From: Flavobacteriales bacterium
Lineage (GTDB): Bacteria; Bacteroidota; Bacteroidia; Flavobacteriales; UBA7312
Length of the DNA stretch: 39,822 bases
NCBI GenBank assembly: GCA_002715345.1
Contig: PAYR01000009.1
Span: 1 to 39,822, forward strand
Direction of reading: 5' to 3'
Shown here: one piece after another, positions 21,033-22,975 of the stretch
Layout of the letters: the number at the start of each line of letters is the position of its first letter
Numbering within the stretch: the first letter of the stretch is position 1
The notes under the pieces: generated by a model
Database searches by the model: none
The model's input: the letters and a program-made list of their open reading frames with translations, nothing else
What the model was told of the DNA's origin: nothing
Position numbers and translations under genes: made by a program

Positions 21033-22489
21033 TCTACTTTTTCGTAAGCCCCTAAATCAGGAAGTCCGCTTCTAGTATTTCCTAAAATATCTTGTGAAAT
21101 ATCTGTTTCAATTCCAGCATCAATTGCAGGAGAAATTTGGTGTAGTTGATAATTGTCTTCTTGAGTATTTACAAACAAGGAATCGCTATTTTGAATTTTG
21201 ATAGAGTTGTTTTCTTCTAAATAGGTTAGGCTAGAGTCGGGATGTAATTTAAGTAGGCAGTTATTAAAACTGTAATTAAATGTAGCAGCAGTATTTTCTT
21301 GTAACTCAATTTCTACAGGTAGTGAGCCACTAATAATACAATTGGTAAAACTAGCTTCTTGCAAGTCTCTTAGCTGAATATTCCCATTAGCGTCTTCGTA
21401 AAAGTTGTTTAATAGAATAGAAGGTGTATTTCTAGATGAAAAACTCCAGTAATTAGCAAAGGTAGAATGTTTAAAATCATAAGTGCCACCAATGTTTAAC
21501 ACCATAGCATAACGACCACAATCGCTAATCACATTATTTTCTCCCACAACGTGGCTGCCTTGAGCAAATATACCAATATCGCTCATGTGTTCTATTATGG
21601 TGTTTTTTACTGTTAAGGTTGGATTGTTATTACCAATGGTGTCTGCATGTAGTCCAACAGTACCATTTCTAATAATGGCGTAATTCACTTCATTATCAAC
21701 ACTTCCAGGAGTAAACCAAATTCTATCCCACTGACCAGCTACATTTTCATACCATTCATCTAGACGATCTCCTTGAAAAAGGACTTCATTGTTTAGTTCT
21801 CCTTCAATTTTCAGTGTCCCTCCATTCTCTGCTAACAAAGGGTTTCCTACAATAATTCCTGAGTTTTTATGGAAGTAGATTTGACAGCCTTCATTAATGG
21901 TTAAAGTAGCATTTGGCTCTACAATTACATACCCATAAATTACATGAGGAAGGCTGTTGTTCCATGTTGTGTTTTCAGTGATGGAGTGATATTTGTAATT
22001 GACAGTATCAGCACCACTCATAAAAAAGTTGTCATGGGGGGTATAGAAATTGGCATTTTGTCCATAAGCGACTAAATCTACATTTTGTGTTTTTCCATTG
22101 GTTACAAATAGGAGTGAGTCGGTTACTAAATAAGGGAGATTTCCATCAACAGGGTTGATGGTTGCTTCTACAAAAATATAGATAGAGTCATGAGCTGCAA
22201 TTTTGATATTTTCAGCATGTGTTCCTGAAACACCATCTACATTAATTCGATATACTCCTTCGGAATTGAGGTTGGCTAAATCGATAGAGTTAATACTGAC
22301 AGAGTTATTGTTTCTATTGTATACTTTTAGCGTGTGTGTAGTGCTTCCAACGCTAGTAAATACAGTGTCAAAAATGATAGTGTCAGTAGAGAATTGTAAT
22401 TCTCCGGGGCCACTTTCAGCAAAAAATTCTCTCTTACAAGCATTAAGAGAAAGGATAACTAACAGGGTTAAAATAATTCTTTTTAGCAT
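21029..22489 (-). CDS. Right-handed beta-helix lipoprotein
   Basis: A 486-residue predicted lipoprotein. The signal ends in Leu-Asn-Ala-Cys with the lipidated Cys18, followed by Lys-Arg-Glu, which is not the usual Ser-Asp-Asp surface signal. Residues about 30-130 form an immunoglobulin-like strand domain with Phe-Asp-Thr-Val-Phe-Thr-Ser-Val-Gly-Ser. Residues about 180-440 show the repeating short strands and Asn turns of a right-handed beta-helix. The C-terminus Gly-Leu-Pro-Asp-Leu-Gly-Ala-Tyr-Glu is the ending seen in choice-of-anchor polysaccharide-associated proteins. A carbohydrate-binding or structural role is plausible, but no catalytic set is visible. Confidence 0.82.
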   Translation of the reverse strand: MLKRIILTLLVILSLNACKREFFAESGPGELQFSTDTIIFDTVFTSVGSTTHTLKVYNRNNNSVSINSIDLANLNSEGVYRINVDGVSGTHAENIKIAAHDSIYIFVEATINPVDGNLPYLVTDSLLFVTNGKTQNVDLVAYGQNANFYTPHDNFFMSGADTVNYKYHSITENTTWNNSLPHVIYGYVIVEPNATLTINEGCQIYFHKNSGIIVGNPLLAENGGTLKIEGELNNEVLFQGDRLDEWYENVAGQWDRIWFTPGSVDNEVNYAIIRNGTVGLHADTIGNNNPTLTVKNTIIEHMSDIGIFAQGSHVVGENNVISDCGRYAMVLNIGGTYDFKHSTFANYWSFSSRNTPSILLNNFYEDANGNIQLRDLQEASFTNCIISGSLPVEIELQENTAATFNYSFNNCLLKLHPDSSLTYLEENNSIKIQNSDSLFVNTQEDNYQLHQISPAIDAGIETDISQDILGNTRSGLPDLGAYEKVD

Positions 22490-22506
22490 TTTGAAAAAAT
22501 CAGTTA

Positions 22507-22514
22507 CAAAGATA
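22507..22514 (-). promoter_or_regulatory. -7 element of the beta-helix lipoprotein gene
   Basis: The minus strand reads TATCTTTG, a full TAnnTTTG match, 17 bp before the ATG, predicting a leader of about a dozen bases. Confidence 0.45.
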
Positions 22515-22569
22515 TAAGATTTAACGAAGGATAATTAAGATTCGTATGCTGTAAAAAGAATGAAGACGG

Positions 22570-22601
22570 TTTGGTATATTTCAGACAAGAGCGTATATTT
22601 G
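22570..22601 (+). promoter_or_regulatory. Promoter of the L31 gene
   Basis: TTTG at 22570-22573 and TATATTTG at 22594-22601 are separated by 20 bp, a near-ideal Bacteroidota sigma-A promoter and the best in this window. It predicts a start near 22606 and a leader of about 55 bases before the L31 ATG. Confidence 0.8.
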
Positions 22602-22604
22602 CAG

Positions 22605-22650
22605 CCCTAAATCGTAGGGTAGGAAGACAATAATTGTTTCACCTACGGCT
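22605..22650 (+). promoter_or_regulatory. Structured 5' leader of the L31 gene
   Basis: The leader can form a small hairpin CCCTA/TAGGG (22605-22609 with 22615-22619). It can instead form a longer one in which CGTAGG (22613-22618) or GTAGG (22619-22623) pairs with CCTACG (22642-22647). These use overlapping bases, so they exclude each other. Ribosomal protein L31 leaders that control their own gene are known in several phyla; whether this is one is inference. Confidence 0.4.
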
Positions 22651-22663
22651 AAATTAAATTAAG

Positions 22664-22918
22664 ATGAAAAAAGGAATTCACCCAGAAAACTACAGACTTG
22701 TTGTCATGAAAGATATGTCGACAGGTTATTCGATTTTAACAAAATCGACTGCAGCTAGTAAAGAAAATGTTAAATGGGAAGATGGTAATGAATACCCATT
22801 GATTAAGATGGAAATCTCTTCAGACTCTCACCCTTTCTACACAGGTAAAATGAAGTTAGTGGATACTGCAGGTCGTATTGACAAGTTCAAGAACAAATAC
22901 GCAAAGTTCGCTAAATAA
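22664..22918 (+). CDS. rpmE2: Ribosomal protein L31, type B
   Basis: An 84-residue protein of the large ribosomal subunit. The start [10 protein letters not shown] and the Ser-His-Pro-Phe-Tyr-Thr-Gly-Lys segment near 55-62 are typical of type B L31. It contains no cysteine at all, so it cannot hold the zinc that type A L31 carries. It stands alone with a strong promoter, a folded leader and a strong terminator, so it is a single-gene unit. Confidence 0.96.
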
Positions 22919-22939
22919 GTCAAGTGTTTAAACATAAGC

Positions 22940-22975
22940 AAAACCCCAATCTTTATGGATTGGGGTTTTCTTTTA
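22940..22975 (+). terminator. Terminator of the L31 gene
   Basis: A perfect 12-bp stem, AAAACCCCAATC with GATTGGGGTTTT (22940-22951 and 22958-22969), with a six-base loop, then CTTTTA. It lies 21 bp after the L31 stop. Confidence 0.93.

Follow-up and report, generated by a model that had tools for sequence, protein, structure and literature searches.

A candidate operator hairpin before the L31 gene of a Flavobacteriales genome and conserved L31 leaders elsewhere in Bacteroidota

The window analyzed here, a 39,822-nt stretch of DNA from a Flavobacteriales bacterium, carries a gene for the type B ribosomal protein L31 preceded by a short leader that a first-pass annotation proposed as an autoregulatory RNA. 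Does this leader let L31 control its own synthesis, or does it fold without such a role? The proposal is partly borne out: the observation is real and statistically modest, and the interpretation, unproven for the window sequence, is correct in parts of the phylum.

The L31 leader of the window

The window L31 gene has its own promoter (by consensus), with the leader directly 5' of the gene. The features are as follows:

22570..22601, + strand: Bacteroidota-type promoter with the −33 element TTTG (22570–22573), 20 nt of spacer and the −7 element TATATTTG (22594–22601), assigned solely by its match to the consensus
22605..22619, + strand: 5' hairpin of CCCTA (22605–22609) and TAGGG (22615–22619), 4 bp if transcription starts at 22606
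22606..22663, + strand: predicted L31 5' leader of about 58 nt, its start inferred from a −7 box at −12 to −5
22607..22654, + strand: two CTAAAT copies (22607–22612 and 22649–22654) that flank the main hairpin, from a by-eye comparison with leaders of family f11
22613..22647, + strand: main irregular hairpin with the outer stem CGTAGG/CCTACG or, exclusively, GTAGG (22619–22623)/CCTAC
22648..22663, + strand: A/T-rich translation initiation region, mostly unstructured (mean unpaired probability 0.88)
22664..22918, + strand: type B 50S ribosomal protein L31, 84 aa, no cysteines (NCBIfam NF002462, 127.2 bits, cut-off 86)
22940..22969, + strand: intrinsic terminator with a 13-bp stem and a T-rich tail

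The promoter reads TTTG-N20-TATATTTG and fits the Bacteroidota consensus TTTG/TANNTTTG (excerpt of PMC6847099). Similar promoters are also found at same-family L31 loci. In Flavobacterium johnsoniae, the same excerpt puts the −7 box at −12 to −5 (PMC6847099). This spacing predicts a start near position 22606, with the first C of CCCTA at −1, and a leader of about 58 nt by the −7 box inference, close to the 55 bases first estimated. The 13-pair terminator at 22940–22969 supports the earlier description of L31 as a single-gene unit with its own terminator. The sequence GTATATTT is present twice inside the promoter (22574–22581 and 22593–22600), 19 nt apart.

Three pairings compete in the leader: CC(C)TA with TAGG(G), CGTAGG (22613–22618) with CCTACG (22642–22647), and a second GTAGG (22619–22623) with CCTAC. 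Two exclusive folds had been claimed, and their stems do lie at these positions and exclude one another; the first-pass annotation missed the second GTAGG and an inner stem common to both folds, AGACAA/TTGTTT (22625–22630/22634–22639). Fold 1 (CCTA/TAGG with GTAGG/CCTAC, −11.3 kcal/mol) is favored by 1.7 kcal/mol over fold 2 (CGTAGG/CCTACG, −9.6 kcal/mol), and the mean pair probabilities of the three stems, in this order, are 0.35, 0.72 and 0.26. We set aside a switch between folds as the mechanism because of this energy difference and because the start codon is outside both folds. The hairpin at 22613–22647 ends 16 nt 5' of the AUG.

The stability of the window hairpin is modestly beyond chance. 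Its folding z-score is −2.37, matched by 19 of 1000 dinucleotide shuffles, and that of the leader (22605–22663) is −1.68, matched by 60 of 1000. By criteria set post hoc, with the sequence already known, a 6-bp stem containing four or more G-C pairs arose in 87 of 5000 shuffles, and such a stem plus an exclusive 5-bp partner in eight of 5000. The folding signal is absent from longer stretches (22602–22690, z −0.52, 289/1000; 22605–22720, z +0.49, 677/1000), and adding coding sequence (22605–22680) gave a z of −0.72, with 45 of 200 shuffles folding as well.

A comparison with Rfam returned no match at the gathering score in the window and, at E ≤10 over positions 22450–22950, two weak matches inside or after the gene and none on the leader. 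As a positive control, the E. coli leader matched RF03157 with 60.1 bits, a control for that one L31 model.

Relatives of the window leader

L31 and pckA are adjacent in seven same-family relatives too, so the same genomic place could be compared. The distance from the −7 box to the ATG is 62 nt in the window versus 20 nt in all seven other same-family genomes in which L31 was found, counting the best L31 copy per genome (83–86% identical to the window protein) and leaving out a second L31 gene (L111) in genome G009. At 26 fetched loci of family f11, which have a similar L31 and belong to the same order, the distance is 14–33 nt. The second L31 gene of G009 is 59% identical and located elsewhere in that genome; no promoter box was found before it.

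No homologous leader was found among nine other same-family genomes. We did not find L31 in G001, the sole other genome of the genus (74% complete). Querying with DNA of the L31-pckA region yielded no more than a 41-nt match in G001 and nothing in the same-family genome G004; searches of both with the protein of the upstream neighbor were empty and, with no positive genome, carry little weight. On these sequence comparisons, the window leader is not supported by conservation. The covarying stems that the first-pass annotation looked to in relatives did not appear for this leader, a weak test with one sequence known.

The stretch between the CTAAAT copies looks like an insertion into a short leader. 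It could be a short palindromic stretch gained by a neutral or nearly neutral insertion, with no regulatory role. The f11 leaders such as TTTGCAGCCCTAATTTAAG..ATG resemble the window leader minus its middle, which has CTAAAT on both sides, and the hairpin is absent from 7/7 same-family genomes with L31. The TTTGCAGCCCTAA of the window recurs unchanged at four f11 genes (L009, L142, L143 and L148) with short, hairpin-less leaders, so the 5' arm CCCTA is best read as shared start-region sequence. Against a neutral insertion, the stretch is single copy (itself and one 15-nt match) and shows no sign of a repeat family in the assembled genome, an incomplete assembly (60% complete, 1.21 Mb). Having only one copy in the assembled 1.21 Mb, it was also rejected as a repeat element. 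We give a neutral insertion the same weight as a role as an L31 operator.

L31 leaders in other Bacteroidota

Conserved RNA leaders precede L31 in several groups of Bacteroidota, with covariation in two of the classes that we describe here (A and C); this is the stronger of our findings. The idea of an L31 leader finds support in these other groups (classes A, B and C), and conservation does not support it for the window element.

Class A is a GGCAAAAUCC hairpin (loop GG-CAAAAU-CC) directly 5' of L31, represented by loci L152, L153, L154, L156, L159, L162 and L167, held-out loci L254–L286, and L334–L342 in family f8. The training alignment A1 held 15 of 17 candidates (L228 and L234 were dropped for their different loops; L250 and L253 were never included). 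In A1, 89.2% of cells pair, none of 500 shuffles reaches the covariation score, and six of eight pairs change on both sides, a count that 52 of 500 shuffles reach as well. A search of 60 whole genomes of family f18 with the class A model gave 45 matches at E ≤0.05 in 41 genomes, 38 of them 4–13 nt before an L31 match and seven elsewhere. Class A precedes L31 in 38 of the 58 f18 genomes with L31, and in 33 of 53 when only held-out genomes are counted. Sequences count as held-out here when their handles do not appear in the training alignment; the L336 leader is nearly identical to that of the training member L335/L231. No row of alignment A5 is equal to any A1 row.

The 33 held-out class A sequences retain the structure, with 85.2% of cells pairing, the covariation score reached in 0/500 shuffles, and six of eight pairs changing on both sides (8/500 shuffles). 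The number of pair types in this set was not above shuffles (365/500), and the two outermost pairs are weak, each unpaired in 19 of 33 sequences. Shuffle counts are not probabilities because related sequences can beat shuffles without any structure; for this reason the slid-partner control weighs more. Sliding class A partners by one column lowers pairing to 20.8–29.9%. Twenty f18 genomes with L31 lack an on-target class A match, and the upstream regions of seven of them, read by eye, hold in some cases a variant hairpin and in others a short leader.

Class A also occurs in the window's own order. In family f8, the model gave 34 matches at E ≤0.1 over 41 genomes; of the 30 fetched, 17 lie directly before L31 (the top nine among them) and 13 do not. 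This places class A before L31 in 17 of 41 f8 genomes, or 13 of 37 held-out ones. At L348 (genome G319), about 1 kb separates a class A match from the L31 gene, whose own upstream GGGCAAACCAACC stretch may be a variant hairpin.

In one genus (g6), taken here to be Flavobacterium, L31 is preceded by class C, a three-helix leader. At E ≤0.01, the class C model finds exactly one match in each of the 51 g6 genomes, two of which were in the training set, and all matches are 1–11 nt before L31. The loci are L174–L177, L182–L184, L187–L189, L191–L195 and L030, with L294–L333 held out. Alignment A6 comprises 40 of 49 held-out matches (the nine dropped rows include the four weakest); eight of its 40 rows resemble a training row at more than 95%, and one of these eight contains, or lies within, its training counterpart. 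In these 40 sequences, 91.0% of cells pair, with the covariation score reached in 0/500 shuffles, and 12 of 17 pairs change on both sides (5/500 shuffles), for an outer helix picked after viewing A6 and two others derived by RNAalifold from A6 itself. When partners are slid, pairing falls to 42.0–55.9%.

Class B consists of CCAUUA-loop hairpins, present before L31 at all 33 loci of a group of 29 f6 loci and four loci named Chryseobacterium (L019–L023, L101, L102, L105, L110 and L202–L225) versus five of 200 other upstream stretches. The stems vary in sequence and mostly fold around the loop. MAFFT with RNAalifold on 23 of 30 distinct sequences recovered no pairs, which we think reflects a shifting of the stem register against the loop. 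For lack of pairs in that alignment, we instead folded sequences singly, keeping the loop open and shuffling the flanks. The mean z of 10 representatives was −2.50, with seven below −1.5 and the remaining three at −1.38 (L019), −1.29 (L216) and −0.36 (L203).

The window leader lies outside these classes. The class A model (R1) found no match in the window at E ≤10 and reached at best 5.5 bits on the leader with filters off; the class C model (R2) gave two matches at E ~2 elsewhere in the window and 2.5 bits on the leader. Neither the CAAAA loop nor CCATTA is present in the leader. We rejected membership in class A, B or C on the basis of these scores and the missing class B loop. A degenerate member of one of the classes would share the site before the same gene, and class A is present in the order, yet the low scores, the missing loop motifs and the same-family and f11 leaders, too short for any of the three classes, make this origin very improbable. 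The window leader may nonetheless work in a similar way.

A survey of folding across the phylum placed 220 of 233 L31 leaders (13 had no box in range). Of these, 119 are shorter than 40 nt, and many relatives manage without a leader; 101 are at least 40 nt, and 66 representatives of them, the window included, were folded. The mean z was −1.43; 20 of the 66 fell below −2, and the window leader scored −1.68, in a set in which representatives of one class are interrelated and some automatic starts are doubtful (e.g., L048, L072, L242, L243 and L244). That L31 leaders of at least 40 nt across the phylum are, on average, more stably folded than shuffles argues against the window stretch being neutral. 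Some class members fold no better than shuffles (L019, −0.33; L250, 0.07; L253, 0.26; L229, 0.43).

A possible L31 operator in the window

We propose that the window element is an L31 r-leader, a lineage-specific translational operator, with a probability of roughly 40%. Its function, L31 binding and mechanism are inferred by analogy. A hairpin leader would have been gained in this lineage downstream of a conserved L31 promoter. Excess free bL31 would then bind the irregular hairpin at 22613–22647, and the bound hairpin would deny the 30S subunit access to the A-rich, unstructured initiation region. The alternative 5' pairing may influence which fold predominates and would be dispensable. Bacteroidota mRNAs as a rule lack Shine-Dalgarno (SD) sequences, so a protein-bound leader hairpin would need to block initiation by other means, and steric occlusion is likelier than SD masking.

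Self-regulation is a reasonable idea for the window leader because other branches of Bacteroidota carry conserved L31 leaders. The stems and their position, the single L31 gene with its terminator, and the structured L31 leaders in other Bacteroidota speak for an operator; the missing homologue and model match, the modest significance of the fold, and its occurrence in one genome speak against it. Classes A–C share with the window leader both the phylum and the position directly 5' of L31. Unlike the window leader, they are conserved, with covariation in the held-out sets of A and C, and they bear no resemblance to its hairpin.

A close known parallel in arrangement is from E. coli, where bL31 is reported to repress its own mRNA via a bulged hairpin (excerpts of PMC10931766 and PMC9825181). 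Like the window leader, this rpmE operator (RF03157) is an irregular hairpin located just before a single-gene L31 unit. It differs in its gammaproteobacterial conservation and in vivo test (excerpt of PMC10931766), neither of which the window has, and in its use of an SD sequence; nor does the window match its model. Eckert and Weinberg (2020) described five L31 r-leader motifs, from Actinobacteria, Coriobacteria, Corynebacteriaceae, Firmicutes and Gammaproteobacteria, with none from Bacteroidota in the excerpted text (PMC7247131). These motifs are, like the window element, single hairpins before L31, and each is confined to one phylum. The same excerpt gives leaders from Bacteroidia or Flavobacteria for other proteins (L13, S4, S15 and S16). 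Self-control of a ribosomal protein, as proposed for the window, is also reported in the same phylum for bS21 (rpsU) of Flavobacterium johnsoniae. The bS21 control differs in relying on a strong SD and on ribosomes lacking bS21 rather than on a leader hairpin (excerpt of PMC9976891).

The hairpin could instead serve only to set basal translation or the stability of the mRNA, with no L31 bound. It begins about 7 nt past the predicted start, and in F. johnsoniae structure around the start codon tunes translation (excerpt of PMC6847099). Such a role is improbable given that the initiation region is mostly open and that same-family relatives manage without any hairpin.

L31 self-control could have been invented repeatedly in Bacteroidota, in at least three unrelated leader RNAs (one of them in two orders) and in a newborn one in the window, caught early. 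We regard this wider scenario as doubtful. A newborn leader would stand in a family otherwise equipped with short L31 leaders, and the window lineage may reveal how leaders of this kind arise.

The lasting value of the analysis lies in L31 leader classes that are absent from Rfam 15 as tested, with no Rfam match on 20 L31 upstream stretches (E ≤1) or on nine class A loci (gathering score). Our literature searches returned no description of a Bacteroidota L31 leader among the matches listed (15 of 91 in one search). A report of 64 structured 5' regions in Flavobacterium psychrophilum, available in excerpt (PMC9723704), may include an L31 entry. The classes offer testable cases in culturable bacteria, namely Chryseobacterium for class B and, presumably, Flavobacterium for class C.

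Two remote L31 relatives were seen in viral contigs and left out of the comparisons. Pedobacter-type long L31 leaders sharing TTGCCAGCAAATTGCAA (L080, L082, L084, L090, L107, L161 and L163) may form a further class, as may the long hairpins before L31 at L075 and L106.
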